Assembly: GCA_017883235.1 (NCBI GenBank)
Contig: JADGNY010000013.1
Span: forward strand, 1 to 64,000
Direction: 5' to 3'
DNA length: 64,000 nt
DNA from: Thermoanaerobaculia bacterium
Lineage (GTDB): Bacteria; Acidobacteriota; Thermoanaerobaculia; Gp7-AA8
Below the pieces are notes generated by a model. It did not search any database, was not told the origin of the DNA, and worked only from the letters and a program-made list of their open reading frames with translations. The position numbers were made by a program, and so were the translations under genes. Below, piece by piece: positions 45,902-64,000 of this stretch; within the stretch, counting starts at the first letter, position 1; every line of letters begins with the position of its first letter.

Positions 45902-48900
45902 TCACTTCACATCGATCCTCACCTCATCACTATTCGCCCGAATCTCCGGTACGTACATCGCCTGACCCATCAGCGGGAGCGCGTGGAAGGAGCCGGGGAC
46001 TTCGGCGCGGAGGGTGTAGCGGATCTCCCAGACTCCTTGCGGCAGCCGAGAAGCGAACATGGCTACCTTGCGGTCGCGCAGTTCCTGGTAGAGCCATTCG
46101 GTGCGGCCGGTTGCGTCGACGCCTGAGTTCCGCTGGACCGAGGGGGGAGTAGTCTTCGATTCGACGAACTTCCGGATCACGGCGCCTGACTTGAGCTCGC
46201 GCGCGAACAAGCCCTCCCCGCTTCGGATCTCGACGGCTTCGAGGCCGGCGGGTTTCAGGTCCTCGAACATGAGGTACTCGTAGTCATTCTTTGTCTCGAC
46301 GGTAACCACCACTTCCACCCGCTCCCCGCTGGCGAGGGTCTCGCCGTCGTGTAAGGGAACACGGTCGTAGAGCTGGCCTTTGAGCAACGTCGGATGCCCG
46401 ACCAGGTGGTAGTAATCCCGGCGGACGAAGATCTCGTTTCCAGCGGCTTTGATCGGCTCTTCGAGGGAGAAGAAGCGGGCTTCGGCGGCAAAGTAGAGGG
46501 AGCCGGTGCCGGCTGTGCGGTGGATGCGGATCTCGTTGATGCCGTCGCGGACGGCGGAGGGCGGGATCGTCCAGCGGCTCGGGGCGCGGAGGATGGCCGA
46601 CGGAGTCACAGTCTGGGTAGCGATGGGAGCGCCGTTGGCGGAGATCTCGTAGCTCCCCTCGCCGGATAGCTCGCCGCTGGCGTGGAGGTACTCGTCCAGC
46701 GCCAGGATGGTGATGGCGGTGTCGCGGGTGTTGTTCCATTGGGCGCCGCGGCGGTTCTTGATCAGCCAGTTCGTCACCGGCTCGATGAGGGCGTTCTTCG
46801 GGTCGATCTCCGTCAGCGCCATCAGGGCGAACGACGTCGACTCCACCGGACCGTCGGACCAGCGCCACCAGGAGGCGTCCTGGCCCCAGTGGGCGGTGGC
46901 CATCGTCTCGGCGCTGCCGGCGGTGCGGCCGTTCGCGCCGTGGATGATGACGGAGGTATCGGGAGCGCGGTCGATGCGGACGCCGTTCTCGAGATTGCGT
47001 ACCAGCACCTCTGCCCGCTCGGCGTTTCCGAAGTCGTGGACGGCCAGTGCCAGGAGGGCGCGGCCGTAGGCGGTCAGCTTGTCGCGGTGCGTCCAGACGT
47101 TGTCGAGGGCCTTGGTCTCGAGTGCGTTCGGCGTTGCCGCGGCCTTAGGCGTGCGCCGCCACGCGGCCAGCGCGTGGAGCATCCAGGCCTGTTCTTCGTG
47201 ATTCCCCTCGTAGTTGACCAGCTTGACGTCGAGCCAGCCGGCGGCGCGGTCGACGGCCTGCGTATGAACGCTTAGGCCGCCGTCGCGGGCGACGGCGAAG
47301 CCCCAGATGACGTAGGCGGTCATGTAGGGGTCGCTATCGCCTTCCTTCCACCAGCCCCAGCCACCGTCCGCGTGTTGGAAGTCGTAGAGGCGCTTCATGC
47401 CGGCGGCGGTGATGCGATCGAGCTCGCCGAGGTCGTGCTTGCCGTGCGGGTGGGTAGCGTTGGCGGTGGAGGACTCGATGCCGCCGAACATGCGGCCGGC
47501 GACGTCGGCCGGATCGGCGCCGATGCCGCGCAGCGTGCGGGCCACGATCGCCGCCGGGAGGAAGCGGCTCATGGTCTGCTCGGTGCAGCCGTAGGGATAG
47601 TCGATCAGGTACGGCAGGGCATCGAGCATGGTCACGGCCAGGCTCGGCGTGACCTGGATGGTGACGTCCGTCGAGCCGGCGCGGCGCGCGGCGGGGAGGT
47701 CGAGCCTGATTGTTGCCTCGTCACCGCGCATGCGTCCTGACTTCGCGATGAGCTTGTCGATGCCGTGCTCGTAGATCGGGAAGCTCTTCTCCATGGCGTC
47801 GGCGTACTGCTCGCCGCGGCCGGTGACGTTCAGCTTCGCGGTGCCGGCGTGTGCAACCACGACGCGCCAGTCGACGCGGGTCTCCCCGTTCGCCGGCACG
47901 TCGACTGGTGTTTCTTTCGACGGTTCCTCGAGCTCCAGTCCGCCGGCGGTCAGCGACGGGCGGACGTGCATTACGGCATCGGTGTTGTTGTCGATGACGG
48001 CGGAGATGGTGACGCGGTCGCCGACGACGAAGAAGCGCGGCCCTTCCAGGCGGACGATGAGCGGCTTCTTCGTCCGGGTGGTCGACGTGGCCATGCCGAA
48101 CTGGTTCGTCGCCGTGGCCGCGCGGGCCGTGGCCCGCCAGGTGGTCAGCGAATCGGGATAGGTGATCTTGATCGTGGCCAGCCCGTTCGCATCCGTCTTC
48201 ACATCGGGCTGCCAGAAGATCGTGGAGCGGAAGTCGCTGCGCACCTGGACGGGCGCTTCGACAGCCGTTCCGCCGACGAGCGGTTTGGGAGATTGTGGCG
48301 GTGCCGGGGGTACCAACATCTCCTGAACAGGCATCGCGGCCGACTTCATGGCCATGGCCGTTACCGTGATTTGCTCCGCGACCGCGCCCCCGGCCACACC
48401 GCCTACAACACCCTGGGCCACTCCGTCTCGGAGGTCATCGAGCTCGTCCTTCTTTCGCTCCTCCGTTGTCTGCCCCAGCCTCCGCTCGTCAACGACCTTC
48501 CCATCCTCGATGACGAACTTCGCATACGGCCGTTGCTGCACGCTGGCCGAGGTCTCGATATTCGCGTAGCGTTTCGTCCCGAAGAAGAACTGCCGCGGAT
48601 CGCCGGCGAAGTCGCTCTGAATGGCGTAGACGGAGTCATCGACCAGTCCCAGCCCGACCTCGGCGGACACCGGCTTGCCCTCCGCGTCGCGCGTGGTGAC
48701 GGTGAGCGTCCCCTCCTCGCGCGGCTGGTATTGCTCGCGGTCGGACTTGACCGAGACGTCGACAGCGTTCTTCAGCGGCGGAACGATGATCTCCTTCTGA
48801 TCGACCGAGAGCTGCAGGTCGGCGACGCTGGCGGCGTTCAGGAAGACGTTCGGCACATGCTTCTCTTCGATCGGGATCTCGATCAGCTTCACCGTTCCCT

Positions 48901-51760
48901 CGACGTGCACGAGGCGGTAATCGAGGATCGAGTCGGCATCGACGCTGAACAGCACCCAGCGATTGCTCGACGGGGTCACGATCATGACCGGCGCGGTCTG
49001 GCCGACGCGGAATGCCGACTTGTCGACGATGATCTCGACGCCGTCGTGTCTGTAGCCGATGTCCTGAACATCATGGGACACGGCCCAGATCGTGGTTTCG
49101 GCCGTCACGACATCGCGCTGCGCCAGCGGTGCGTTCGGCTTCGACGGATCGCGGTCGGGGCTGGTCCACATGACCCGGTAATAGCCGTCCCGGTTCGGCG
49201 TGAAGGTGACCTCGGCATCCCCATTGGCATCGGTCTCGACCTTCGTGGTGGTCACGTCTTCGTGCTTGTATCCGCGCGACTTCAACTGCCAGCCGCACGG
49301 GTCCCGCGGCTTGGGCGGAAAGATGCGCATTCCGGCGCGCACGCGATCGAGCTCGGCCCCTCGCACCTCGCGGCCCCGCGGATCGATCCACGACTCGTCC
49401 CACCAGTCGCGGGTGATGGTCACCGTGCCGTTCGCTCGGACGGGATTGTCATTGGCATCAATCGCTGAGAAAGAGATCGTCGCCTTCTGATTCGGATGGT
49501 AGACGTAGTGCTGCGGCTCGGCGTAGACGGAGTAGCGCTGCTTTGTCACGCGAATGGTTCCGCTGCCGGTGATCTCGCGCCGCGAGGTGTCGGTGACGCG
49601 CGCCTCGATCCGGTACTGCACTTCGTTGCCGTCGCGCTGCGTCGGCAGGTGAATGACTGCGTGGCCGCCGGCGTCGGTGGTCAGCGTTTCCCGCTTCATG
49701 ATCTGGCCGTCGCCGTAGTAATTCGGCTCGATGGCGTCGGGGTAGTACCAACTGTAGTCGCGCGGTCTCCACCACCAATGCGTGTACGGCCGCGAGTAGA
49801 TGACCGCTTCGACCTTGGCATTCGCAACCGGGCCGCCGTAGTAGTAGCTGGCGTCGACGGTTGCTTCGATGGTGTCGCCGAGGCGGAAGAGTTTCTTCTT
49901 TCCGTTCTCCTCGGGGGTATGAACCTCGACCTTGAATTCGGGAAGCTTGTACTCCTCGAGGCGGAAGAGCTCCGCGTTACCGATGGGGTAGTTGCCATCG
50001 CGAAAATTGATTCGGTAGACGCCGAGGGGCATGGCCGTGGTGAGGTCGAGCGAGCCCCAGGCGCTTCCGAAGGCGTTCAACTTCGCTGAGCCATCGGCGA
50101 CCTTCGTTCCCCGAGGATCGGTGATCAGGTACTGAAGCGTCGCATCGGACGGGTTGGACGGGGTCTCTCCTTCGAAACGTCGCGCGGTGAACTTCCACTG
50201 CACGGTTTCCTCGGGGCGGTAGGCAGGGCGATCGGTGTAGGCGTAAATCTTCCACTGACCGCGGGAGCCGTACGTCTGCCCCTTCCACATCTCCACGAAT
50301 GCCTGCCGTCCGCTCCCCTGCGCGATCGCGACGAACAGGTTCATGTACTTGGTCCGGTCCAGCCCCACCTCGGCCAGACCATCGGCGTTCGTGGTGGCGT
50401 CGAACGAATGGGCGATGTTGTGATTGTTTTCGTCGTGCCGCTCCCACAGCTTCACGCGCGCATTCGCGAGCGGCGCACCGGTCAGGGCGTTGCACGCGTA
50501 GACGACGGTCTTCGATGCTTCGTTGCGGACGACGACCGTGACGTCGGTGACCAGGACCAGCGCACGTTCTCCGTTGCCGCCACCATCGGCTTGCAGGAGG
50601 TAGGCGCCCGGCGGCAGTTTGGGATCGATGCGCATGCGCGCGGAGCCGGGCTCGTGATCGCCCTTGTCCTCGGTCTCTTTCTTCCACGTGCGCAGGACGC
50701 CGGACTTCGGCTCGATAATCGTGTCAAGCCAGTCCTCTGTTGTGTTGAGGCGCGCGTCACTGGTGAGGTCGATCGCCGAGAGGGTGAGGTCGATCGACTT
50801 CACGTTCCGCCACTGCAGCTCGAACTCGGCCTCGGAGTCAGGAAGAAAGACATTCGAGACCTGGACGAACACCGACGGTTTGATGATGCGGTCGACGGCC
50901 TCTCTCGCCTCCTCCCAGAATCGCGTCTCGCCTTCCGTGAACTCGGAGAGGATGCGGCGATACGCGGTCAGCGCGGCGATGTAGTCCGGCTTCCTCTGCG
51001 CCTGCCCATCCTCGCGGATGACCACGCGGCCCTGTTGCTCGAGCCAGCGGGCATAGGCGATCAGGGCGTTGTCATAGCGCTCGCTGACCTTCCCCTCGCG
51101 AATGGCTGCCAGCAGTTCCTCGCCGACGCGATCCGGTTCGCCTACCGCGCCGAGACGCACGGCGAGGAGGTAACGAAAGGTCTGCCGGTCGGCGGGTGTC
51201 GTGGCGATCTTCGCGGCGTTCTCGATGGCGTCCATCGAGATCTGCTGGGAGAGGCCGTTGAGGTAGTCGTCATCGCCGGATGTGATTCTGCGGACGATGC
51301 TGAGGTAATGCATCCGCGCGCGCTCGACGTCGCCAGTGCCGGCCCACCAGTCGAGCGCCGCTTCGTAATACTGCGATGCGGCCTGCAGGCCGCCCGCGCC
51401 GAGCGGCGAAGCCGCCATATCGCCCAGCGACTCGTCGATCTCCGCCCAGAGCCTGTCGTGATCGTCACCGGTCTCGCGAAGGAGGGCCAGCAGCTCATCG
51501 CGTGCTTTGGTGACCTCGGTGTCATCACGCTTCGGATCGGCCGCTTCCGCGCGCCACATCGTGTCCGCCACGCGGAATCGCACCCACCGCTGCTCGGCCA
51601 GCGGCAATGCCTCCCGCTTCACGCCGGCGTAGATCTCATGCGCCCGCGCGTAAGACCCCTCCGCGAACGCCACCTCCGCCTGCCGCTTCAGCGTGTCGTA
51701 GTCCGAGGTGACCGGAAACAGCGAGAGAACTGACAGAAGCAGCGCGAGAAGGTTCAGCAT
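45902..51760 (-). CDS. Bacterial alpha-2-macroglobulin with thioester
   Basis: 1952 aa. An N-terminal signal sequence (LNLLALLLSVLSLFPVTS) has no lipobox cysteine, unlike the usual lipoprotein form. Residues about 25-290 look TPR-like helical; macroglobulin-type beta domains follow (FQVSNVFLPDSEAEFELQW, YTDRPAYRPEETVQWKFTAR, and LTVTTRDAEGKPVSAEVGLG further on). The thioester motif PYGCTEQTMSRF has C1392 and Q1395. The thioester-bearing helical domain continues with HADGGWGWWKEGDSDPYMTA and a receptor-binding-like C-terminus. Such proteins trap proteases in the periplasm. No penicillin-binding protein 1C gene is next to it, which is the common partner of the YfhM class. Confidence 0.95.
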   Translation of the reverse strand: MLNLLALLLSVLSLFPVTSDYDTLKRQAEVAFAEGSYARAHEIYAGVKREALPLAEQRWVRFRVADTMWRAEAADPKRDDTEVTKARDELLALLRETGDDHDRLWAEIDESLGDMAASPLGAGGLQAASQYYEAALDWWAGTGDVERARMHYLSIVRRITSGDDDYLNGLSQQISMDAIENAAKIATTPADRQTFRYLLAVRLGAVGEPDRVGEELLAAIREGKVSERYDNALIAYARWLEQQGRVVIREDGQAQRKPDYIAALTAYRRILSEFTEGETRFWEEAREAVDRIIKPSVFVQVSNVFLPDSEAEFELQWRNVKSIDLTLSAIDLTSDARLNTTEDWLDTIIEPKSGVLRTWKKETEDKGDHEPGSARMRIDPKLPPGAYLLQADGGGNGERALVLVTDVTVVVRNEASKTVVYACNALTGAPLANARVKLWERHDENNHNIAHSFDATTNADGLAEVGLDRTKYMNLFVAIAQGSGRQAFVEMWKGQTYGSRGQWKIYAYTDRPAYRPEETVQWKFTARRFEGETPSNPSDATLQYLITDPRGTKVADGSAKLNAFGSAWGSLDLTTAMPLGVYRINFRDGNYPIGNAELFRLEEYKLPEFKVEVHTPEENGKKKLFRLGDTIEATVDASYYYGGPVANAKVEAVIYSRPYTHWWWRPRDYSWYYPDAIEPNYYGDGQIMKRETLTTDAGGHAVIHLPTQRDGNEVQYRIEARVTDTSRREITGSGTIRVTKQRYSVYAEPQHYVYHPNQKATISFSAIDANDNPVRANGTVTITRDWWDESWIDPRGREVRGAELDRVRAGMRIFPPKPRDPCGWQLKSRGYKHEDVTTTKVETDANGDAEVTFTPNRDGYYRVMWTSPDRDPSKPNAPLAQRDVVTAETTIWAVSHDVQDIGYRHDGVEIIVDKSAFRVGQTAPVMIVTPSSNRWVLFSVDADSILDYRLVHVEGTVKLIEIPIEEKHVPNVFLNAASVADLQLSVDQKEIIVPPLKNAVDVSVKSDREQYQPREEGTLTVTTRDAEGKPVSAEVGLGLVDDSVYAIQSDFAGDPRQFFFGTKRYANIETSASVQQRPYAKFVIEDGKVVDERRLGQTTEERKKDELDDLRDGVAQGVVGGVAGGAVAEQITVTAMAMKSAAMPVQEMLVPPAPPQSPKPLVGGTAVEAPVQVRSDFRSTIFWQPDVKTDANGLATIKITYPDSLTTWRATARAATATNQFGMATSTTRTKKPLIVRLEGPRFFVVGDRVTISAVIDNNTDAVMHVRPSLTAGGLELEEPSKETPVDVPANGETRVDWRVVVAHAGTAKLNVTGRGEQYADAMEKSFPIYEHGIDKLIAKSGRMRGDEATIRLDLPAARRAGSTDVTIQVTPSLAVTMLDALPYLIDYPYGCTEQTMSRFLPAAIVARTLRGIGADPADVAGRMFGGIESSTANATHPHGKHDLGELDRITAAGMKRLYDFQHADGGWGWWKEGDSDPYMTAYVIWGFAVARDGGLSVHTQAVDRAAGWLDVKLVNYEGNHEEQAWMLHALAAWRRTPKAAATPNALETKALDNVWTHRDKLTAYGRALLALAVHDFGNAERAEVLVRNLENGVRIDRAPDTSVIIHGANGRTAGSAETMATAHWGQDASWWRWSDGPVESTSFALMALTEIDPKNALIEPVTNWLIKNRRGAQWNNTRDTAITILALDEYLHASGELSGEGSYEISANGAPIATQTVTPSAILRAPSRWTIPPSAVRDGINEIRIHRTAGTGSLYFAAEARFFSLEEPIKAAGNEIFVRRDYYHLVGHPTLLKGQLYDRVPLHDGETLASGERVEVVVTVETKNDYEYLMFEDLKPAGLEAVEIRSGEGLFARELKSGAVIRKFVESKTTPPSVQRNSGVDATGRTEWLYQELRDRKVAMFASRLPQGVWEIRYTLRAEVPGSFHALPLMGQAMYVPEIRANSDEVRIDVK

Positions 51761-52297: not shown

Positions 52298-52583
52298 TCA
52301 CGCGAAGACGCGAAGAAAAACCTCGCAAGCCTCGCCTGCTTCTTCTTCGCGACGGGAAACCTGATCACGCGAAGACGCGAAGGCGCGAAGAAAAGCGCAA
52401 ACCTCCATGCTTCTTTTTTCGCGTCCCTCTTCGCGGCTTCGCGGCTTCGCGTGAGATCACTTCGTAACCGCCGATCTCAACCGAGGCGAGGAAACCTGAT
52501 CACGCGAAGACGCGAAGGCGCGAAGAAAAGCGCAAACCTCCATGCTTCTTTTTTCGCGTCCCTCTTCGCGGCTTCGCGTGAGA
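52298..52583. repeat. Cluster of CACGCGAAGACGCGAAGG / CTTCGCGGCTTCGCG repeats
   Basis: No gene. At least five copies in alternating orientation: 52300-52320, 52364-52395, 52425-52455, 52499-52530 and 52556-52583. The blocks 52364-52442 and 52499-52577 are themselves nearly identical (ATCACGCGAAGACGCGAAGG, later GCAAACCTCCATGCTTC), a direct duplication of about 78 bp with a 135-bp offset. Confidence 0.9.
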
Positions 52584-53471
52584 TTACTTCGTGACGACCG
52601 CCTCATACACCCGCAGTTCCACCTTCGTCATCGTGCCGAGCACGTCGCGGGTGGCGCCGATCTGGCTGGCTTTCGAGGCGGTTGCTTCGACCAGCACCGC
52701 GTCGGTGATGTCGCTGTATTTCTTGCCGCCGTTGATGACCAGCGCTACGACCGCGGCTTCGAGGGGGGACATGCTGGGGTTGAAGGCGGCGTTCTCGGCG
52801 ACCGAGCCGGTGTAGACGGCGCCGTCGCTGGTTTTCAGGGCCACGCCGGCGTAGCTGAGGCTGTAGGGGGCGTACGACGTGTTGGCGGCTTGCAGCGCGG
52901 CCTTGATCACGTAGTCATCGGTCGGAAAGGAGAGAGTCATGCCGTGTGACTGCGGCGACATCAGCGCGGCGGTCACGCCGAGGTCGGAGGGGCCGAAGGC
53001 GTCGGGGAGGAGAGCGGTCAGGAGGGTGGTGGGGGTATTCGGCAGGATGATCAGGAGCTTCGACGCCGTCGTCAGCTCGTTGAGAAACTGCCGGCAGTAG
53101 CCGCACGGGGCGGCGGAGATGGCCAGCATGTCGATGCCGGTTTCTCCGAACGAAATCGCGTGCGCGGTGGCGGCCTGCTCGCCGTGGACGGTGAAGCTCA
53201 GCGCCTGACCGGGGAACTCGAAGTTCGCGCCGAAGTAGAGGTTGCCGCTCAGGCCGTGCGCGACCGTGCCAACGAAGAAGTTGGAGATGGGCGGGATGGC
53301 GAACTTCTGCGCCCGAGGAATCAGATTGAGCATGAGCTGCTGGAGTGGCATCCCCGCGGCGACGATGCGGTCGACGACGGCCGCCGGGAGATACCCCCCG
53401 GCGGCCTGACATGCGGATTCAATCTCGGCGATCTGCTCGTTCGAGAGGGCTGCTGCGTCCGCGCTGGTCAT
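52584..53471 (-). CDS. cdd: Cytidine deaminase, two-domain E. coli type
   Basis: 295 aa, the length of the homodimeric enzyme with a degenerate second half. Catalytic zinc site: H96-G-E98 (TVHGEQAATAHA; usually H-A-E), C123 and C126 (APCGYCRQFLNE). Substrate motif FFVGTVAHGLSGNLYFGANF. The second half (AALQAANTSYAPYSLSYAGV, then ENAAFNPSMSPLEAAVVAL) matches the broken repeat in E. coli Cdd. Deaminates cytidine/deoxycytidine in pyrimidine salvage. Its ATG overlaps the stop of the upstream ABM-like gene (ATGA), making it the last gene of a seven-gene redox operon, an unusual place for a salvage enzyme. Confidence 0.93.
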   Translation of the reverse strand: MTSADAAALSNEQIAEIESACQAAGGYLPAAVVDRIVAAGMPLQQLMLNLIPRAQKFAIPPISNFFVGTVAHGLSGNLYFGANFEFPGQALSFTVHGEQAATAHAISFGETGIDMLAISAAPCGYCRQFLNELTTASKLLIILPNTPTTLLTALLPDAFGPSDLGVTAALMSPQSHGMTLSFPTDDYVIKAALQAANTSYAPYSLSYAGVALKTSDGAVYTGSVAENAAFNPSMSPLEAAVVALVINGGKKYSDITDAVLVEATASKASQIGATRDVLGTMTKVELRVYEAVVTK

Positions 53472-54220
53472 ACGCTGAACGCCTCTTTGCGGAAGAAGCC
53501 GGCGAAGCGCTTCAGTACCGACGTGGTCATGTAGGGATGCGTCGTCAAGCCGGCGGGTCCGGCCTGCACGAAGAGATCACCGTGCTCTTTCAGGAATCCC
53601 TGATAGACCGGACCGTTGCCGTGGTCGAAGAAGGTCTCCTTGTTGGTCCATGACGAGTTGTAGACCAGCGCATCGAGCTGCGACGGCGGGAGCGAGAACG
53701 ACTGCTCAGAGGCGACGGCCACGCTGACCGTGTACATCAGCGTCGTCGGCTCGTCGTCGTGTACGGCCTGAACGTATGGCCTCAAGACCGCCTTCACCTT
53801 CTCGCTGCAGCCGGGTTTCATCACCCAGCGCGCCTCGACCTGCCACGCGTCCATGACGTCAGCGCCGGGGCGGATGAAGCCGTCGATCATCTCCAGCCCC
53901 TGCAGGAGGAAGAAGGGAACAGTCGGTCCGTACATGTTCAGGAAGTACTTGCCGCTGTTTTCGACGAAGTCGTGCATCACCTGCGAGGTGTGGTGCGCCT
54001 TGTAGGCGTCGAAGTCTTTGTAGCCTTCGACGAAAGCCACCTGCGTGGCGGTGACCGGCGGATAGATGTTCGTCCCGGGATCGAGGTTGGGGGTGTGGAT
54101 CAGATACATCCAGGTGTCGGGCTGCGTTGCCTCCACGGCCGCGGCAAGTGCACCGAGGGCCGCGTAGGCTTTTGCCTCGTTGCCGGGGATGATGGACAGG
54201 AAGGCATTGTTGATATACAT
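53468..54220 (-). CDS. Duplicated ABM-like (dimeric alpha/beta barrel) protein
   Basis: 250 aa. Two similar halves of about 110 residues: the first has NAFLSIIPGNEAKAYAALGA, WMYLIHTPN, VAFVEGYKDFDAYKAHHTSQ; the second has VEARWVMKPGCSEKVKAVLR, TLMYTVSVAV, LVYNSSWTNKETFFDHGNGP. Each fits the ferredoxin-like fold of antibiotic-biosynthesis monooxygenases (helix, W/L-M-Y-strand, aromatic Y-D/K-x-x-A/F-x-x-H). Members include cofactor-free oxygenases and haem-degrading or binding proteins. A fused dimer is expected. 15 bp downstream of the GMC gene and coupled to cdd. Confidence 0.8.
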   Translation of the reverse strand: MYINNAFLSIIPGNEAKAYAALGALAAAVEATQPDTWMYLIHTPNLDPGTNIYPPVTATQVAFVEGYKDFDAYKAHHTSQVMHDFVENSGKYFLNMYGPTVPFFLLQGLEMIDGFIRPGADVMDAWQVEARWVMKPGCSEKVKAVLRPYVQAVHDDEPTTLMYTVSVAVASEQSFSLPPSQLDALVYNSSWTNKETFFDHGNGPVYQGFLKEHGDLFVQAGPAGLTTHPYMTTSVLKRFAGFFRKEAFSV

Positions 54221-54235
54221 GAAATTCCTTTCTTG

Positions 54236-56185
54236 CTACGCGCCGAGAGCCGCTTTGATGGCTTCGGCCGACTTGAATGCCAGAGCCATGATGGTGAGTG
54301 TGGGATTTGCCGTGGCGACGGTGGGGAAGCTTCCGCTGCCGACGATCCAGAGGTTCTGGACGTCATGCGACTTCTGCGTGGCATCGACGACCGACGTACA
54401 CGGATCGGTCCCCATACGATGCGTGCCCATGATGTGGCCCGCGCCGTACATGTGGTACATCTTTTTCTCGTAGTTGAAGTCTCCGGGTCCCATCGTCTTC
54501 CCATCCGGATACTTGTCCTTCGGGTAGGGATTGACGGTCGGCTGTGTGAACTCCTGTGCTCCCATCTGCTGGAAGATGGCGCTGCAGGTCTCGGCGGCCA
54601 CGCGGAACCCTTCCAGCGTGTACTTGTCGAAACCGTAGTCCACGTGGGGCCGGGGGATCTTCAGGCCGTCGGTGTTGTTCTGATCGATGGTGACGCGGTT
54701 ATCCGCCTGCGGCGCCTGCTCGAGCAGAAGGCCGAAGCGGAACTGGCGCGTCAACCGGTCGTTGAGGGTGTTGACCAGAGCCGTCCCGCCGAGGCGCGTC
54801 GGTCCGGAGTTGAGCTGCGAACCATTGGACCCGGTCACGAAATCGAGAGTGGTGGTGTAGGGATCGCCGCAGGCGAAGTTCCATCCCTCGTTGCCGATCT
54901 CCATGCGGAAGGCGGCGCGGTTCGTGCGGAACTCGCCGTCGCGCAGCGACTCGATGCCACCCGTGGCCAGCGGACCGCGATAGCCCCATACCTGCGAAGG
55001 GGCCAGCGCCCACGCCAGATAGAGGACGTGGTCCATCAGATTGCGGCCGACCTGATCGCTCTTGTTGGCGATCCCCTTCTGATCGTTCGAAAGAAGGAGC
55101 AGCTTGGCGTTCTCGATGGCGTGACAGGCGGAGACGTAGATCTTCCCGGTCACGCTGGCCGGCGTCGACTGCAGATTGCCCTTGTCGTCGTACGACCACT
55201 TGAGGTAGTCGACTTGCGTAACGTTGTTGCCGTCGACGGCGATGTTGACCGCAACCGACTGGTAGCTGACGGTGACGTTGCCGGTGTTGAGGGCATCGCC
55301 AAGGGTCACGGTCGGATCCCACTTGGCCTGAATCGGACAGATGGGGATGCAGTTCGTATTGCCGGCGCAGACGCGGCGATCCTGATACGGCTCGGAGTTG
55401 CGGCCTGCGGGGGTGTTGGTGACGAAGACGGAGTACTCCTTCCCTCCCTCGCTCCCTTCGCCCGGGACGCTCATTCCGCTCACGCCGTTGCTGACGGTCT
55501 GATCGACCACGCTCGACGGGATCGGGCCCATCGGGTATTCGTAACCCGGCGGGTAGACCATGCCGATGGCGGCCTGCAGCGGCACCTGCTGGGTCACGCT
55601 GGCGGCGACGCCGATCTCGCTCTCGGCCAGACCCCACAGCGTCTGCATCTCCGAGTACTCGATCGGCCAGTCGTAGAAGACGCCGTACGTGGTCTTCATC
55701 GTCAGATCGTGCGGCACGAGACGCGGCACGCTGCCGAGCCAATGCCAGGCCGTGCCGCCGCCGATGCGGTCGTACGTGCTCGAGAACTGCAGTTGCCGCA
55801 CCTCGGGCTGGTTATCCGGCGTGGTGCCGGAAACGCCGGCGGTTTCCGACTGGATGAGATGGCTGACGTCGGGCGGCGCGCCGATCGACAACACCGTGGC
55901 GCGCGGCGTGGGGATCTCCGAAGGATTCGGGAGCGTACCAACGCCCGGGCCGATCCGCCCGGCCAGCGACGGGTACGGCGACTCCGGCGTCTTCGCCAGC
56001 GCCAGATAGAAGTTCTCCATGTACTGCTCGCGGCTGTCCGGAACGGCCGGACCGGCCTCGAGGATCAGCACCTTCTTGCCGGCCAGACCGAGCTGCTTGG
56101 CGATGAGATTGCCGGAGACACCGGCGCCGACGATGACGACGTCGTATTGCGGGGTATCGCTGCCGTTGCCGTTCCCGTTGCTCAC
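54236..56185 (-). CDS. GMC-family FAD oxidoreductase
   Basis: 649 aa. GTG start (GTGAGCAACGGG) with GGAGG six bases upstream, overlapping the preceding stop by 4 bp; an earlier in-frame reading runs through that gene. The FAD-binding motif is at residues 15-25 (DVVIVGAGVSGNLIAKQL), then LEAGPAVP. The C-terminal catalytic region has GAGHIMGTHRMGTDPCTSVV, then LWIVGSGSFPTVATANPTLT, in which a histidine acts as base. A Cys-containing segment (GNTNCIPICPIQAKWDP) is typical of the membrane-linked alcohol/sugar dehydrogenase branch. Oxidises a hydroxyl group; substrate unknown. Partners: small subunit upstream and mono-haem lipoprotein. Confidence 0.92.
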   Translation of the reverse strand: MSNGNGNGSDTPQYDVVIVGAGVSGNLIAKQLGLAGKKVLILEAGPAVPDSREQYMENFYLALAKTPESPYPSLAGRIGPGVGTLPNPSEIPTPRATVLSIGAPPDVSHLIQSETAGVSGTTPDNQPEVRQLQFSSTYDRIGGGTAWHWLGSVPRLVPHDLTMKTTYGVFYDWPIEYSEMQTLWGLAESEIGVAASVTQQVPLQAAIGMVYPPGYEYPMGPIPSSVVDQTVSNGVSGMSVPGEGSEGGKEYSVFVTNTPAGRNSEPYQDRRVCAGNTNCIPICPIQAKWDPTVTLGDALNTGNVTVSYQSVAVNIAVDGNNVTQVDYLKWSYDDKGNLQSTPASVTGKIYVSACHAIENAKLLLLSNDQKGIANKSDQVGRNLMDHVLYLAWALAPSQVWGYRGPLATGGIESLRDGEFRTNRAAFRMEIGNEGWNFACGDPYTTTLDFVTGSNGSQLNSGPTRLGGTALVNTLNDRLTRQFRFGLLLEQAPQADNRVTIDQNNTDGLKIPRPHVDYGFDKYTLEGFRVAAETCSAIFQQMGAQEFTQPTVNPYPKDKYPDGKTMGPGDFNYEKKMYHMYGAGHIMGTHRMGTDPCTSVVDATQKSHDVQNLWIVGSGSFPTVATANPTLTIMALAFKSAEAIKAALGA

Positions 56186-56724
56186 TGGCCACCTCCGGTG
56201 TTGACGCCGAACGTAGCGAGTCCCGCCGGCGGCTGACTCCAATAGCCGAATGTGAATGCACTGAAGCCCATGGGATGAGCCTGGGCCACGTTCCAGACCA
56301 GGCTCTTGGTGTAGGCCTGCGAGGAGATGACCTGGAGCACCTGGCCCGGCTGTTTGTTGGCGGTCTGATAGGCAGGGGTGTACCAGGAGCCGAGGTACCA
56401 CATCAGGATGACGGCCTGGGCCAACTGCGCCTGGTTCGATTCCTTACCGGTGGGAGTGGTGACCTCGAGCAGCGAGTCGGCGATCTGCTGGGCGGTCAGA
56501 GGAGGCGTCTGGCTCTTGCGTGACCGGAAGGCGGCCAGCAGGTTGTCCATCGCCGTCTGCCCGACCTGGGCGACGGCGAAGTTGTAAAAGACCTCAGAGA
56601 GGTTGGTGGGGTCGAGGAATGGCCGGAGGAAACTCGACTGAAATCCGGTCAGTGCCGCGGACATATCGGCGAAGTCCTGCAGGACGGAATCAGAAGGACC
56701 GCCGGTGGATGGTGTGGTGGTCAT
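56182..56724 (-). CDS. Small-subunit-like protein of a GMC dehydrogenase
   Basis: 180 aa. The arrangement (short alpha-helical protein directly upstream of, and overlapping, a GMC large subunit) and segments such as MSAALTGFQSSFLRPFLDPT, AQAVILMWYLGSWYTPAYQT and MGFSAFTFGYWSQPPAGLAT fit the sorbitol/fructose/gluconate dehydrogenase small-subunit families. No Tat or Sec signal is seen, which is unusual if the complex is exported. GTGA overlap with the GMC gene indicates coupled translation. Confidence 0.72.
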   Translation of the reverse strand: MTTTPSTGGPSDSVLQDFADMSAALTGFQSSFLRPFLDPTNLSEVFYNFAVAQVGQTAMDNLLAAFRSRKSQTPPLTAQQIADSLLEVTTPTGKESNQAQLAQAVILMWYLGSWYTPAYQTANKQPGQVLQVISSQAYTKSLVWNVAQAHPMGFSAFTFGYWSQPPAGLATFGVNTGGGQ

Positions 56725-56740
56725 AGTCGTCTACCTTTCT

Positions 56741-58198
56741 CTATTTCGCGCGTTGCAGCACGTAAGTGAAGTCGGAGTGCACCGGCGTGGTCATCGTTGC
56801 GTTGTTGTGGCACTCAATACAGTTCGATGAGACGTTGGGCGCCAGCGGCGGCCCCTGGATGTACGTCTCGAGCGTGGTGTTGGCGAGGTAGCTCGGAGCG
56901 GGCTCGCCGAGGGGGAATTGCGGGTCCGCCGTACAAAGCCCGTTGCCGGGGCTGGTCGGCCACATCGTGCTGACGAGCTCATAGTTCTTCCAGACCGAAT
57001 TCGCGTTGACTCCCACGAGCAGCTTGAGCGCCTCGGCGTTGTGTTTCGCCGCGCTGGTGAAGGCGAACTCGCTCCCACCTTTGAACATATTCATCCGCAC
57101 GATCTGGCTATGGAAGGAAGCCACCTGCGTCGGATTCCAAGGCCGCGGCGGCACCTTGTTCGGCGGGCAGTCGGCGGCGCTGCATTTCGGGTTGTAGTAG
57201 TTGTATTTCGCTTTGAATTTCCCGGTGGAGACCTCTTCCTCGGTGGGGACGTTGTCGATGTGCTCGAAGGTCGACCAGAGCCACTGCGGGGCGAGGTTGG
57301 TCTTGTGGCCGACATGCAGGCCGACCATGCCGACCATCTTCTTGCTGCACGTCGCCGGGTACTTCGGGTTTGACGATGCCGGCGAGTAGACCAGGACGTT
57401 CGCGGTGTGGAAACGCGATTTCTCCGAAGGGTCGATGATCATCCACGATGACTTCACCATGATGGCTCCCTCGGCGCCGTTGAGGACACCGCAGGGGAAC
57501 TTCACAGCGCCGCTGAACACCTTCTGCCCAGCCTTCGAGTAGAGCGTGTTCGACAGGATGTAGTCGAACATCGGCTTGTTCACCAGAATCTCGTAGCGGG
57601 TGTAGACGCCGTTCTGATCGATGAGCGGACCGGTGTTGAACGGCTGGCTGAACTCCGACACCGTCAGCACATTGGGGGTCTTACCGACCTGGGTGATGAT
57701 GCGCTCACCCGGCGTGTAGTCGGCTTTGCACTCGGCCGGCACGTTGGGCTCGGGACCGTTCCACGCCGGCACGGCGCCGCCGGGAAGGAAGACGTCGGCG
57801 ACGTCGCGGTAGTGCTCCCAGACCGTGTCGTTGTCGCCGTTCTGGCCGATGGTCTTCTTCGGATCGCCTTTGCCATCCGGCCCGGGAGGCCAGTTGAGAG
57901 CGATGAAGGTGTTCCATGAGTAGATGTCGAAGTCGCCCTGGGCGATCTGAAACTTCTTGGCCCTGTCCGAGCCCGGGGGGATGGAGCCTTCCTGCACATC
58001 GCCCGGGATGTTGGCGCTCAGGACGATGGCGGGGGGCGGCGGGACGGTCGACGTCGTGGTGGCCGTGGTCGTCGTCGTTGCAGTCGTAGCCGTCGTTGAC
58101 GTCGTCTCTGTCGACGCCGTCGTGTCGGTATTGGCCGGCATCTCCTTCCTGCACGCGACGGCGAGCGCGAGCAGGGTGATCGTTGCGAATTTCCTCAT
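56741..58198 (-). CDS. Mono-haem c-type lipoprotein
   Basis: 485 aa. Signal peptide with a lipobox cysteine at C16 (LLALAVACRKE), a Thr-rich linker (about residues 24-52), then a folded domain with WNTFIALNWPPGPDGKGDP, VFSGAVKFPCG, GLHVGHKTNLAPQW and FEHIDNVP. One CxxCH haem motif at C460-C463-H464 (NCIECHNN) near the C-terminus, where Met ligands (TMTTPVH) follow. Probably a periplasmic membrane-tethered electron acceptor. It sits between the BBE oxidase and the GMC pair, so it may take their electrons if they are exported. Confidence 0.88.
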   Translation of the reverse strand: MRKFATITLLALAVACRKEMPANTDTTASTETTSTTATTATTTTTATTTSTVPPPPAIVLSANIPGDVQEGSIPPGSDRAKKFQIAQGDFDIYSWNTFIALNWPPGPDGKGDPKKTIGQNGDNDTVWEHYRDVADVFLPGGAVPAWNGPEPNVPAECKADYTPGERIITQVGKTPNVLTVSEFSQPFNTGPLIDQNGVYTRYEILVNKPMFDYILSNTLYSKAGQKVFSGAVKFPCGVLNGAEGAIMVKSSWMIIDPSEKSRFHTANVLVYSPASSNPKYPATCSKKMVGMVGLHVGHKTNLAPQWLWSTFEHIDNVPTEEEVSTGKFKAKYNYYNPKCSAADCPPNKVPPRPWNPTQVASFHSQIVRMNMFKGGSEFAFTSAAKHNAEALKLLVGVNANSVWKNYELVSTMWPTSPGNGLCTADPQFPLGEPAPSYLANTTLETYIQGPPLAPNVSSNCIECHNNATMTTPVHSDFTYVLQRAK

Positions 58199-58216
58199 GT
58201 TGTCTCCTCTCTCGAA

Positions 58217-59680
58217 TCAAACGAGGAACGTGCGATAGAGCGGCGCCTGGTTGGGCGGATACGCGCCGTCCGGGTTGAATGGGGAACCGATGGCCTGTTG
58301 GAAGCGGAAGTGATGGTCGGGATCGACCGACTCTTTGATGCGGCAAAGCTCGGCGTAGTTGTCGCCGTAGAACTCCTGCGGCCAGTCGTGCAGCAACGGG
58401 TCGATGTAGTTGCAGTACGCGCCGATGGAGTGCGGCGCCATCCCTTCGCCGAGCTTGTAGGCCCAATTGACGTTCTCCACGCTCTGGTCGGGGTTGGCGT
58501 GCGGCCAGATCGCTTTCACTTCCCACAGGAAGCGGGCATCGCGATGCCAGAAGGCGGTGTCGGTCTTGGAGACCTCGGTGACTTTCCCCCCCATGTGCGT
58601 CCAGACCAGCAGGCTGCTCGACGACGGGGCGGTGGTCATCGAGCCGGTCAGCACGTCGATGCACGACGGCGTGAACGACTTCGGCGCCATGAAGCCGGAG
58701 CGGATGTAGGCGCTGTTGCCGGCCACCACGGTCAGCAGACCGTTGAAGATCTCGAAGTCCGGCAGGGTCATGTCATAGAGGTTGATGAAGATGTTCGGGA
58801 ACTTGAGGATCGGTGCGATGAGGTCCATCCCCTCGCGGCTGTTGCCGTTGAAGATCGGGGTGAGACCGACGGTGTTGACCAGGGTGTCGGGATGGGCGGG
58901 CAGAGCCACTTTGCCCATGTAGCCGTAGACGGCGAGCGAGTCGGGCGCCTTCTCGATCCACTCGTTGTAGAAGCCGAGCACTTCCTGCGCGTACTCGATC
59001 GGATAGCGGATCTGGCCACAGAGCATTGTCGGCGTGTTGGGCTGGTGAACGCGCAACTCGAAGGCGACGGCGATCCCGAAGTTGCCGCCACCGCCGCCGC
59101 GGCAGGCCCACCAGAGGTCCTTGTCCTCTTTCGACTTCGACTCCGCGGAGATCGTCCGCAGCTTGCCGTCCGGCGTGACGAGGTCGATCGAGAGAAGGTT
59201 GTCGACGCTGAGCCCGTACGAACGGGAGACGAAGCTGATACCGCCGCCGAGCATGAAGCCGGGGATGCCGACGGTCGGACATCCGCCGCCGATCGGAATC
59301 AGGCCGGTGTTCGTCGCCTGCAGGAAGAGATAGAGGTCGCGCCAGCGGTTTCCGGTCTCGCACCAGACTACCTGCCGGCCGAGGTCGAGACGCTTGGCGG
59401 TCATGCTGGTGAGGTCGATGACCATCCCTCCCTGGTTGAGACAGTAACCGGCGGCGCTGTGCCCGCCGCCCCGCACCGTGAACGGCATCTCGTGCTCGAT
59501 GGCGAACTTGTAGGCGGTGGCAACGTCCTGCGGGTTGACGCACATCGCCACTACGCCCGGCCGCAGATCGATGCGGCCGTTGTCGATGACCAGCGATTGG
59601 TCATACCCCGGATCTCCCGCCTCGAGCAGCCGCCCGGCCATCTCCTGACGCAGCTTCTCCAGATACTTCCTCGGAATCAT
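58217..59680 (-). CDS. Berberine-bridge-type FAD-dependent oxidoreductase
   Basis: 487 aa. Start at MIPRKYLEKL, preceded by GGAGGAGAAACTA. FAD_binding_4 domain with bicovalent flavin attachment expected at H74 (RGGGHSAAGY) and C134 (IGGGCPTVGIPGFMLGGG). Also GLSVDNLLSIDLVTPDGKLR and WACRGGGGGNFGI. The C-terminal BBE motif is ENVNWAYKLG with NYIDPLLHDWPQEFYGDNYA, then RIKESVDPDHHFRFQQAI. The family oxidises sugars, alcohols or alkaloid-like C-N/C-C bonds with oxygen or another acceptor. No signal peptide seen. Part of the seven-gene operon, 18 bp upstream of the cytochrome gene. Confidence 0.94.
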   Translation of the reverse strand: MIPRKYLEKLRQEMAGRLLEAGDPGYDQSLVIDNGRIDLRPGVVAMCVNPQDVATAYKFAIEHEMPFTVRGGGHSAAGYCLNQGGMVIDLTSMTAKRLDLGRQVVWCETGNRWRDLYLFLQATNTGLIPIGGGCPTVGIPGFMLGGGISFVSRSYGLSVDNLLSIDLVTPDGKLRTISAESKSKEDKDLWWACRGGGGGNFGIAVAFELRVHQPNTPTMLCGQIRYPIEYAQEVLGFYNEWIEKAPDSLAVYGYMGKVALPAHPDTLVNTVGLTPIFNGNSREGMDLIAPILKFPNIFINLYDMTLPDFEIFNGLLTVVAGNSAYIRSGFMAPKSFTPSCIDVLTGSMTTAPSSSSLLVWTHMGGKVTEVSKTDTAFWHRDARFLWEVKAIWPHANPDQSVENVNWAYKLGEGMAPHSIGAYCNYIDPLLHDWPQEFYGDNYAELCRIKESVDPDHHFRFQQAIGSPFNPDGAYPPNQAPLYRTFLV

Positions 59681-59771
59681 TAGTTTCTCCTCCTGAACCC
59701 GACGCGGGTCCGCCAAAAAACAACTCGAATGAGGGTCGCCCACCTAGGAGAGACGCGAGAAGGGTGTTTCC

Positions 59772-62700
59772 CTACCCGGTGGTTTTTTCCAGCCCTCGGC
59801 GCATTTCGATCACCCGCCCGGCTGCTCGGATAGTTCGGAAACCGGCCTCGCTGTACATCTGGACCTGTTCGCTCACTTCGGTCCGCCGCGAGGGGTCGTC
59901 ATCGATCCGGACCACACCAGGTCCGGTCCTGTCGAGCAGCTCCCCGATCCTGCCGAGGAAGGCCTTACTGATCCCCGCCTGCCAGAGACTCGGCGGAACG
60001 AAGAAATCGGGGTCGATCCACCTCTCCGTCCAGACCTTGACGCCCTCTTCCTCCTTGTAGAACAGAAGGGCGACGTCGACCTCCCAATCCGCCCGCACCG
60101 TCACGCGGAACCGCAGCGTCTTGTAGTCGTCGCGGTTCATACCGGGATGGGCGGCTTTCCAGAGCTCGATCGCGAGTCCGGGCGTCTCTCTCGGCGGGTC
60201 GATGACAATCCGCCCATCGGACCACGATGGAGAGCCCGCGGACCGCAGCTCGAACCGGTCCTCGAAGAAATCGCGCATGTTCGGGTTGAACATCGGCGAG
60301 AGAAACGGCCAGAGGTCGCGGAACGCCGGCGTCGTCGACCAGCGGCCGAACCAGTTCACCCATCCGATATTCAGAGGATGGCTCCACGAGCGCTCCAGAT
60401 GGCAACTGACGTAGACATCCGCCATCAGTTGCAGAACCTGGGTAAAGAGCGGGATGAGCCTGGCCAGCTCCTCCGTAGTCAGATCGGATGAGCCCTTGAC
60501 GGTCTTCTCCCACTTCAGCTCGGGATAGAGATCGCGCAGCAGTTTGACGCTCCCGAGAGTGACCACCTGGCGCTCGATGGCCAGGAGCTCCGCGGCCCGG
60601 GCCATGAGCTGATCGGGCAGTGTGGGTGGCGTCGGCGACCACTCCTTTCGCGCGCTGCCGAAGACGTCGCTGGCGCTCCGATCGGTGACGTCGCGGTCAT
60701 CGAGAAAACGAAAGGCGATGTGGGCGGCATGAAGGCCGAGCCGGCGATACGACTCCCACTGCTTTTCGTCGTAGAACTGGTCGCCGGTCGACTCGTGCGG
60801 AAAGCTCTGATTGCGTGTCTTGTACTGCAGCACATCGCCAGGTTCATCGCCGACGATGGTCGGCTTGAACAGGAGGAGGATGCCGCGGTCGCCGTCCGGA
60901 TAGATGATGTCTCCGACGGCCACATGCTGGTTGGAGAATCCCTTTTCGTTCGGTTTGAGCGCCGCGAGATCGATGACGACCTCCACGCCAAAGTCCTCCC
61001 GAGCCCGGCGCAAGGCGTTGCCGACGTCATCGAAGGCCGCCTCGGAATCGGCACCGCAGTCCGATGCCAGGATGTACCGGCAGCGGCGGCGAAGGAGCTC
61101 GTAGAGAGCCAGGTTCTCGAAATGGCCGCCGTCGGAAAGATGGATGGAGTTGGATTTCAGCCCGGAGTTCGTGCGGCTGAACATCTCGAAGAAAAGGTCG
61201 CAGCCGGGAAAGAAGGCACGAGTCTTTGTGAGGTGATACCAGTATCCCAGCCGGAGATTGAGCGACGCCATCAGGAACGTCGCCGCCGCGCCGAGGTCCA
61301 TCGAGAGGGACCCCATGTTCGAATTGAACGCCGCGGCTGAAGCGGTCATCGCCGTCGCCAGTGTCAATTTGGACGGTGCCTGATCCCAACCCTGGAAACG
61401 ATTGGCCAGCGTGAAACCGAACAACGAGAGGGTGGAGCTGCGCGCGCCCCGGCTGAGATTGGCGAGGTGATCGCCGGCTAGATCGTTCGCCGCGCAGCAG
61501 ATGAGATGGACCGGCCGCGTTTGTGGCAACTCCTGAAGGAGGAGATCATCGTCCGGGCGCTCGGTCGATTGCCGGTTTCGCGCAGCGCTCCCAGCGCGCG
61601 TGTTCGATGCGCCGAGGTACGCACGGCTCAGACGCGAGCGGTAAATCGGGTGAAGACCGACTTCGTTCGGGTTGTAGAAGACGAGAGCGGCCAGCGTCAC
61701 GCCCAACGGCACCAGGGTCCCGGCCAGCGCGTAGCCATGGGCGATGCAGGTGAAGACGAGACAGGCCACCCCCAATGCCGCGGCGACGACGGCGGTCATC
61801 GCCAGCAGCGGCAGCGCGTAGCGCTCGGCATACGCAAGCGCGCCTCCTTTGGCGCGGCTCGGCTGGCGGGAGAGGATCTTCTGGATGTACCCGAATACAC
61901 CGCCCGAGCTCCCTCCCACCAGCGCCGTCCACAGGCCGACCAGCATCGGGTCGCGCGTCCAGAGGATGAACGCCGCGAATACGAAGAGGATCATCACCGT
62001 CCAGAACACCGCCAGCCCAAGCAGCCGGGCGATGACCCGATCGATCGCGGAGCGATAGAACCCTTTCCTCGGATCGAGGATGAAGCGCGATAAGATGGCA
62101 CGGACGAAGATGAACACGAGCATCGATCCCAGCCAGCAGATGGCCGGCAACAGGAAACGCGCCCACTCGCCGAGCGTACCGGAGCCGGGCATGATCTCGA
62201 AGTAACTCCATCGCGGGATGTCGCGCAAGAACCAGTAGTGGCCCCCCACGACGAGACCCGTGCTAAGAAACGCACCGAGCCAATAGAGCCAGCCGTAGGA
62301 CTCGTCTTTTTCTTGCTGCCTGCGCTTCTCAAAAAACCACATCACACCGAACGTGCTCACGCCGGTGACCGCCAGCGCCAGGTAGAGGTAGGAGACGGAC
62401 GGAAGCGGGCGGCGCAGGATGGAAATCACCTGATTGCCGCCCATGGCGTTCGCGCTGATGATGAGCACGTACCAGATGAGCAGTGCCATGACGGAGAAGC
62501 TCACCACGAGGGCGGGAAGAATCGCCGAGAGCGCACCGCCGAAGAACTGCCACGTCTCGATTTCAAAGAGACCCCAGCGGGGCGCCAGGAAACGGCTGAA
62601 CTCACGCAGGTGCCGGACCGGGTCGGGCTCGGAGCGCACGTTTTCGACCCGAGGGGGCATCTCCGGCTGCTCCTTCTCGTTCGCCGCCGGCTCTGTCTTC

Positions 62701-63194
62701 TCGGACGAGCCGCGTTTCAACCACGCCATCAACGAGCGAGCGCGTGGCTCCTCGTTCGCGGCGTCTGCCGTCCCGGGCTCGCAGTCCTTCCGTGATGCGC
62801 GATCGGTTGGAAAGAGCGCGCCGGCCGGGTTGCGCGCGCGCCATGCGCTCCAGAACGAGCCGATGTATCCGCCGCCGGAGACCGTGGAGAGGTAGTCGAA
62901 AAGATCGAGAAGACTCCGCTCGCCCTTGTTGTGGCAGGCCAGTTCTCGCTCGGCCAGCCCCTGCAACAACCCCAGGTTGAACGTCGCGCTGCGGATCCCG
63001 CCGCCGGATAGCGCCAGTCCGGTCAGGTCGTCCGCAACCTTGACGATGAACGGCTCGGCTCCATCGTCCGCCGATCCCGACTCCGATGACGTTTCGCCGG
63101 TACAGCCGCCGTACGCGACCTCGGGATCACCACCACCGGCTCCTTCGCGGATCACCTGCAGTTCTTTGATGAAAGCAGCTCGAAACGTGGTCAT
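59772..63194 (-). CDS. Membrane-spanning patatin-like phospholipase
   Basis: 1140 aa. N-terminal patatin half: oxyanion motif SGGGIRSATFNLG (residues about 63-75) and nucleophile S106 (STVSGGGYIGS). The catalytic D688 lies in LSDGGHFENLALYELL. Between them, about 215-520, are roughly six to eight transmembrane helices (ILPALVVSFSVMALLIWYVL, WLYWLGAFLSTGLVVGGHYW, FLLPAICWLGSMLVFIFV, YALPLLAMTAVVAAALGVAC). The catalytic dyad is thus split by a membrane region. A C-terminal domain of about 300 residues is unrecognised. Probably a lipid acyl hydrolase on the membrane. First gene of the operon; GGAGGAGAGACGA precedes the ATG. Confidence 0.9.
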   Translation of the reverse strand: MTTFRAAFIKELQVIREGAGGGDPEVAYGGCTGETSSESGSADDGAEPFIVKVADDLTGLALSGGGIRSATFNLGLLQGLAERELACHNKGERSLLDLFDYLSTVSGGGYIGSFWSAWRARNPAGALFPTDRASRKDCEPGTADAANEEPRARSLMAWLKRGSSEKTEPAANEKEQPEMPPRVENVRSEPDPVRHLREFSRFLAPRWGLFEIETWQFFGGALSAILPALVVSFSVMALLIWYVLIISANAMGGNQVISILRRPLPSVSYLYLALAVTGVSTFGVMWFFEKRRQQEKDESYGWLYWLGAFLSTGLVVGGHYWFLRDIPRWSYFEIMPGSGTLGEWARFLLPAICWLGSMLVFIFVRAILSRFILDPRKGFYRSAIDRVIARLLGLAVFWTVMILFVFAAFILWTRDPMLVGLWTALVGGSSGGVFGYIQKILSRQPSRAKGGALAYAERYALPLLAMTAVVAAALGVACLVFTCIAHGYALAGTLVPLGVTLAALVFYNPNEVGLHPIYRSRLSRAYLGASNTRAGSAARNRQSTERPDDDLLLQELPQTRPVHLICCAANDLAGDHLANLSRGARSSTLSLFGFTLANRFQGWDQAPSKLTLATAMTASAAAFNSNMGSLSMDLGAAATFLMASLNLRLGYWYHLTKTRAFFPGCDLFFEMFSRTNSGLKSNSIHLSDGGHFENLALYELLRRRCRYILASDCGADSEAAFDDVGNALRRAREDFGVEVVIDLAALKPNEKGFSNQHVAVGDIIYPDGDRGILLLFKPTIVGDEPGDVLQYKTRNQSFPHESTGDQFYDEKQWESYRRLGLHAAHIAFRFLDDRDVTDRSASDVFGSARKEWSPTPPTLPDQLMARAAELLAIERQVVTLGSVKLLRDLYPELKWEKTVKGSSDLTTEELARLIPLFTQVLQLMADVYVSCHLERSWSHPLNIGWVNWFGRWSTTPAFRDLWPFLSPMFNPNMRDFFEDRFELRSAGSPSWSDGRIVIDPPRETPGLAIELWKAAHPGMNRDDYKTLRFRVTVRADWEVDVALLFYKEEEGVKVWTERWIDPDFFVPPSLWQAGISKAFLGRIGELLDRTGPGVVRIDDDPSRRTEVSEQVQMYSEAGFRTIRAAGRVIEMRRGLEKTTG

Positions 63195-63315: not shown

Positions 63316-63666
63316 ATGCCGACCAGGCAACAGCCGGTCACCTTCGACCTCATCCGCGAGCTGGCGCTGAAGCTTCCCGGCGTCGAGGATGGGACGTCGT
63401 TCGGCACCGCCGCACTGCGCGTGAAGGGAAAGTTCCTGGCCCGCCTGAAAGAGGACGGCCAATCGGTCGTCTTCCGCGTCGGCTTCGACGAGCGCGACCT
63501 GCTCCTGCAAACGAAGCCGGACGTCTTCTACATCACCGACCACTACCTCGGCTATCCAGCCGTGCTGATGCGCCTTGCCACCGCATCGAAACAGGAAGCC
63601 GCCGACATCATCCAGATGGCCTGGCAACAGGTGGCGCCGAAACGGCTGAAGGAGACGCGAACGTAA
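63316..63666 (+). CDS. MmcQ/YjbR-family protein
   Basis: 116 aa. Matches the YjbR CyaY-like fold pattern: FDLIRELALKLPGVEDGTSF, then LRVKGKFLARLKEDGQSVVF, RDLLLQTKPDVFYITDHYLG, and ADIIQMAWQQVAPKRL. Proposed to bind DNA, with no firm biochemical role. Divergent from the patatin operon. Confidence 0.9.
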   Translation: MPTRQQPVTFDLIRELALKLPGVEDGTSFGTAALRVKGKFLARLKEDGQSVVFRVGFDERDLLLQTKPDVFYITDHYLGYPAVLMRLATASKQEAADIIQMAWQQVAPKRLKETRT

Positions 63667-64000
63667 GCGCCTGACGCGTTGTCTGCGGCTGCGCCGCGTT
63701 GTCGGTTGTCTGCGCGCTGCGGCGCGCGTGGACAATATTGTCCGTCGGGGCGGCTGGCGGCGAATGCGCGGCTTCGCCGCCAAGCACAGACAAGAGTGTC
63801 TGTGCCACATTTGCCCTCGGTATTGGCAGGAGAGTGGAGTCTTGCCGGACCGAATGTGGCACAGACACTCTTGTCTGTGCCGTGCGACGCAGCCGCACGT
63901 CGTGAAGCTGTGCGCGTTGTCTTCGCGCTGCGAAGTCAACCGACAACCGACAACGCGCTCCGCGCCGTCATCGAAACAGCGCTGCGAATTGTGTCGTAGA
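63667..64000. repeat. Gene-free interval of nested inverted repeats
   Basis: 63783-63812 carries AGCACAGACAAGAGTGTCTG then TGCCACATT, and 63850-63880 its inverted partner (AATGTGGCACAGACACTCTT, then GTCTGTGCC). Outside these lie inverted copies of GTTGTCGGTTGTCTGCGCGC (63677-63720) and CAACCGACAACCGACAACGC (63939-63958). No gene. Confidence 0.85.

Follow-up and report, generated by a model that had tools for sequence, protein, structure and literature searches.

A probably acquired gene block linking a BBE-like oxidase, a GMC dehydrogenase and an ABM protein, with related clusters in four other phyla

The window, the whole 64,000-nucleotide stretch of DNA analysed here, carries on its minus strand a six-gene block that was probably acquired horizontally. 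Sequence comparisons indicate that the core of this block, encoding a BBE-like FAD oxidase, a GMC dehydrogenase with its gamma subunit and an ABM protein, together with a cytochrome, probably constitutes one oxidation pathway, passed on as a set in several phyla. The core genes recur together in four other phyla, which is why we read the block as marking a real oxidation pathway, and the fact that Streptomyces, Flavobacterium and Lysobacter all keep this gene set together indicates that it serves a specific chemical task. With distinctly less assurance, we suggest that these clusters represent a new pathway, present in at least five phyla. It would combine a GMC dehydrogenase of the cytoplasm, using FAD and a 3Fe-4S cluster, with a bicovalent BBE oxidase and an ABM protein, and its electron outlet would be interchangeable: either an exported mono-haem cytochrome from a so far unnamed family or a ferritin-like protein, in some cases accompanied by the peroxidase DyP. 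No description of this domain combination was found in the open-licence literature, in agreement with the first-pass annotation, which had recognised no described pathway of this composition.

The block forms part of a run of seven ORFs, all on the minus strand, with boundaries matching those described earlier. The run begins with a patatin-like membrane protein (63194-59772; 1140 aa) and continues with the BBE-like FAD oxidase (59680-58217; ATG start, 487 aa, PF01565 and PF08031), a mono-haem c lipoprotein (58198-56741; 485 aa, with lipobox LAVAC and one CxxCH), a small subunit of the gamma or 'hitchhiker' type (56724-56182; 180 aa, with a profile match to gamma subunits), the catalytic (alpha) subunit of the GMC dehydrogenase (56185-54236; GTG start, 649 aa, with FAD and 3Fe-4S residues), a tandem ABM protein (54220-53468; 250 aa) and a cytidine deaminase (cdd, 53471-52584; NCBIfam equivalog, 300 bits). 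A divergent, plus-strand MmcQ/YjbR-like gene (63316-63666), identified by reading its sequence, marks the upstream boundary. Pfam searches confirmed the domains of patatin, BBE, GMC, ABM (in two stretches) and the deaminase, the patatin match (PF01734, 27.8 bits) lying barely over the cut-off. Recomputed from the ORF coordinates, the intergenic gaps from patatin to cdd are 91, 18, 16, -4, 15 and -4 bp, exactly the spacings first given for these same-strand genes, and most starts are preceded by purine-rich, ribosome-binding-site-like sequence. No sigma-70-like site was detected within the gene block, against 1.8 expected from shuffling, in a scan that does not exceed chance. Two terminator-like stems lie directly 3' of cdd (52298-52339), in a window where the overall stem count is no higher than chance.

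Linkage of the core genes across distant genomes carries the main argument. Among 61 GMC loci, BBE genes were present in four, and all four also contained ABM genes (p = 3e-5). To counter the bias of a search starting from GMC, we also ran the BBE profile on its own against approximately 1127 further genomes. This yielded eight new subfamily members above 730 bits, seven of which have GMC, gamma and ABM genes in the same cluster. Members of this BBE subfamily score 730-900 bits, against less than 170 for other BBEs in the one subset of searched genomes from which the latter figure was taken. Together with the window and the four loci from the GMC search, these make 13 BBE-subfamily loci, distributed among Eremiobacterota, Xanthomonadales, Streptomyces, Flavobacteriales and the phylum of the window; BBE, GMC, gamma and ABM genes occur together in 12 of them. 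The remaining locus (L162) lacks GMC and ABM genes; a ferritin-like gene is present there, along with the remnant of a DyP gene. Conserved co-linearity had been set beforehand as the test of a shared pathway for the two flavoenzymes, and it was found for BBE, GMC, small subunit and ABM, accompanied here by the cytochrome; as far as linkage can speak to it, the proposal of a single pathway for both flavoenzymes was thus borne out.

Two forms of the cluster can be distinguished. The cytochrome form is found in the window (BBE-cyt-gamma-GMC-ABM), in Eremiobacterota and in two Xanthomonadales, the order being BBE-ABM-cyt-gamma-GMC in L042 (Eremiobacterota), L052 (Lysobacter) and L163. The ferritin-like form is arranged as DyP-BBE-gamma-GMC-ferritin-like-ABM in six Streptomycetaceae and as gamma-GMC-ferritin-like-ABM-x-Dabb-BBE in two Flavobacteriales, where Dabb and cupin genes are present. 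BBE distances follow those of GMC, gamma and ABM closely (Mantel r 0.95-0.98, 0 of 5000 permutations), a correlation computed on 12 rows and inflated because six of them come from closely related Streptomycetaceae. In the trees, the window BBE groups with Flavobacteriales and the window GMC with the cytochrome forms, which counts against joint inheritance, although the window branches are long. In two unrelated clusters of the cytochrome form, a multicopper oxidase gene lies upstream of BBE and on the other strand (L042:4099-6228 and L052:1498-3552).

Both sampled congeners possess cdd orthologs (78% and 74% identity), which in each case adjoin a divergent mmcQ/yjbR gene, 56 bp away in L131, and the mmcQ-like gene of the window has 78-80% DNA identity to these neighbors. 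In the window, mmcQ and cdd are separated by about 9.8 kb, with the six-gene, 9.7-kb block (53472-63194) between them, and cdd is the single cytidine deaminase gene found in the genome. Since cdd and mmcQ are adjacent in the congeners and flank the block here, cdd is, on this comparison, a resident bystander caught as the last cistron and lies outside the pathway; its 4-bp overlap with the ABM gene would then have been created at the junction. The seven-gene operon initially proposed is therefore split in two, with cdd standing apart from the six-gene block, and within the block the linkage supports the core genes but not patatin. BBE relatives above threshold were absent from both congeners, a single 35% relative being detected in one of 20 relatives; GMC relatives were present in one of 246 other genomes of the phylum, and no small-subunit relative was found in the search of other genomes of the phylum. 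Acquisition of the block in the lineage of the window is a simpler reading of this distribution than many losses. GC and GC3 of the block fall inside the range of the surrounding genes, and composition gives no sign of its origin.

Further features were noted around the insertion point. The heptamer ATGACCA begins both the patatin gene (63184-63194) and cdd (53461-53471), one copy per block end, and may reflect junction microhomology or chance. Just past mmcQ (63768-63896), a 44-nt inverted repeat (89%) has the near-palindrome GCACAGACAAGAGTGTCTGTGCC as its basis; it sits inside a longer nested inverted repeat, has just two copies within the window, and is possibly a mobile or REP-like element close to the insertion. 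Downstream of the run lies a large bacterial alpha-2-macroglobulin gene (45902-51760), 80% identical in congener G248, where it is located on a different contig from cdd.

The GMC protein is related to the alpha subunits of Burkholderia FAD-GDH (E 7e-70) and, at greater distance, of fructose dehydrogenase (E 7e-49). Using published assignments of the FAD-linking His, the 3Fe-4S ligands and the His/Asn pair (PMC6719666), we aligned the FAD-linking His148 and the catalytic pair His584/Asn627 with Burkholderia cepacia FAD-GDH (BcGDH), and the 3Fe-4S ligands Cys273, Cys279 and Cys283 (C-x5-C-x3-C) were invariant in six members. The small subunit aligns with classical gamma subunits over 135 columns (hhalign probability 95.7, E 8.6e-9), and its relatives match PF12318 FAD-SLDH (E 4e-6); by sequence profile only, it is a gamma homolog, its structure model (pLDDT 75) finding no match in a PDB fold search that included 6a2u. 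The window thus shares with BcGDH-type complexes (B. cepacia FAD-GDH, fructose and sorbitol dehydrogenases) the alpha family, its cofactor residues and an adjacent gamma subunit, but it differs from them in several respects. The classical complex contains a membrane subunit with three haem c groups (PMC6719666); this tri-haem subunit is absent in the window, where a mono-haem lipoprotein of another family stands in its place. BcGDH gamma bears a Tat signal and a cysteine bridging to alpha, both lacking in the window gamma, and, unlike in BcGDH-type complexes, the window GMC and gamma genes are linked to BBE and ABM genes. Also related are the clusters of GMC, gamma and ferritin-like (PF12902) genes of Rhizobiaceae, Ruegeria, Pseudoalteromonas and Streptomyces, which share the same GMC and Tat-less gamma families, but in which the ferritin-like protein replaces the cytochrome and which in some cases adjoin IolE and sugar isomerase genes. 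In L037 and L039, iolE and a gene for a sugar phosphate isomerase/epimerase come after a GMC-ferritin-like-gamma cluster, which suggests sugar oxidation by that branch.

A 'hitchhiker' subunit is known for taking its partner out of the cell. The window gamma subunit, however, has neither a Tat signal nor an RR motif, and in a set of 15 gamma subunits, 13, among them that of the window, lack a Tat motif, with none in frame upstream of their starts; the two that bear Tat signals are both from Bradyrhizobium. The window BBE likewise has no export signal. Most gamma members are thus devoid of an export signal, yet their cytochrome retains one: on visual inspection, the cytochromes of related clusters carry a hydrophobic signal at the N-terminus. 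The remark in the first-pass annotation that the cytochrome is exported and the dehydrogenase is not, leaving the electron route unclear, accordingly describes a conserved topology, to which the 3Fe-4S ligands of the GMC protein can now be added.

The mono-haem lipoprotein carries its single CxxCH (460-464) at the C-terminal end, and this motif, together with FDxxSWxxF, is invariant in the family alignment. No Pfam model or PDB relative was found for the family, and the AlphaFold model (pLDDT 49) was not used as fold evidence. A cytochrome-gamma-GMC triad occurs in at least 14 other genomes, from Azospirillum, Bradyrhizobium, Lysobacter, Pseudomonas, Dyella, Halomonas and one Eremiobacterota MAG. 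The triads of Pseudomonas, Dyella, Halomonas and Azospirillum are devoid of BBE and ABM genes, so the dehydrogenase can work without them. Members of the cytochrome family also adjoin a molybdopterin-binding dehydrogenase gene in Methylobacterium and lie two genes from a tyrosinase gene in Paracoccus, neighborhoods that suit an electron-transfer role without proving it. A second family member, with 33% identity, is encoded in the same genome as the window (L013; G000:C197:3166-4572), with no GMC homolog in the 19 kb around it.

Bicovalent BBE-like oxidases bind FAD through His and Cys links and contain a Y/FxN motif (PMC11375781). In the five-member subfamily alignment, His95, Cys155 (P0006 numbering) and the YxN motif are invariant, and the presence of Cys155 beside His95 leads us to predict a bicovalent BBE. 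The nearest solved structure, that of the enterocin oxygenase EncM, shares with the window BBE the FAD_binding_4 and BBE domains, the 8-alpha histidine and the YxN motif. EncM chains are nevertheless shown without Cys at the second FAD-linking position, whereas the window BBE keeps its invariant Cys155 and so departs from the EncM-type FAD lacking a cysteine link; it also falls in a subfamily of its own, linked to GMC and ABM. The tandem ABM protein matches PF03992 (5e-8) in two stretches. Its halves resemble each other (E 4e-7) and show 28-37% identity to the single-domain ABMs of other clusters.

These features are compatible with the following scheme. The BBE, with its bicovalent FAD, would oxidise a hydroxylated organic compound in the cytoplasm and pass the electrons to O2, while the GMC-gamma pair would oxidise a hydroxyl group of the same cytoplasmic compound, using FAD and then the 3Fe-4S cluster. 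The ABM protein, presumably cofactor-free, is predicted to handle a reactive intermediate, which it would probably oxygenate or rearrange. Electrons from GMC would exit via the 3Fe-4S cluster to a partner, for which the exported mono-haem cytochrome is a candidate in the form found in the window and the ferritin-like protein, with DyP in Streptomyces, in other phyla. The topology of a cytoplasmic dehydrogenase and an exported cytochrome, as predicted from sequence, argues against a direct step from GMC to the cytochrome. The sequences establish the gene set and its insertion point, the domain families, the cofactor residues and the co-conservation. We infer a shared substrate for all the enzymes from their linkage; the order of the steps and the electron acceptor are proposals. 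A sugar or polyol is a candidate substrate in view of the GMC relatives and of the IolE and sugar isomerase genes near ferritin-form clusters; phenolics would suit the DyP and multicopper oxidase neighbors.

The same genes might instead form a tailoring cassette for secondary metabolism, with ABM and BBE as oxygenase- or cyclase-type enzymes acting on a scaffold made elsewhere in the cell, which would be a special case of the oxidation pathway, directed to biosynthesis and not to breakdown. ABM-type enzymes are known from natural-product gene clusters, and EncM is the nearest solved relative of the BBE. BBE-like oxidases, moreover, are frequent in natural-product pathways (PMC11375781). However, genes for a scaffold synthase, a carrier protein or dedicated resistance are not conserved alongside the core, and the six Streptomycetaceae clusters have nothing in common beyond the DyP-to-ABM genes, leaving the cassette a possible but rather unlikely reading. 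We consider less probable still a periplasmic respiratory dehydrogenase of the glucose, fructose or sorbitol dehydrogenase kind, in which GMC-gamma would be exported without a recognisable signal and deliver electrons to the mono-haem lipoprotein, with BBE and ABM as separate functions. Classical complexes operate in this manner (PMC6719666), the triad is the most widespread unit and the Bradyrhizobium gamma members bear Tat signals, but the rarity of Tat motifs in the gamma family, with none in the window, and the linkage of BBE and ABM in 12 of 13 BBE-subfamily loci both stand against it.

A single pathway of all seven genes, in which the patatin lipase would set the substrate free and the deaminase would catalyse one of the steps, appears very improbable. 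The close spacing and the 4-bp overlap with cdd would favor such a unit, but cdd is an ordinary gene of the genus, placed beside mmcQ in the congeners, an arrangement on which we rejected it as a member, and neither patatin nor cdd is present in any related cluster. The idea that the patatin lipase releases or anchors the substrate consequently found no support.

The patatin protein itself has GGGxR and SGGG motifs and a DGG within 'LSDGGHFENL', with a hydrophobic insertion between them. On a Bradyrhizobium quebecense conjugative plasmid (L035:1-19031), the triad lies in a one-strand run with patatin, phospholipase D-like, CHAT, M4 peptidase and MBL genes; the patatin of this island is not detectably similar to that of the window. 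Short ORFs beside BBE in Lysobacter (L052:7191-7520) and Streptomycetaceae (L162:8880-9203) consist of the N- and C-terminal portions of a DyP peroxidase joined together, the middle being gone. In L052 this remnant sits between BBE and ABM, and DyP may therefore be an older component of the gene set.
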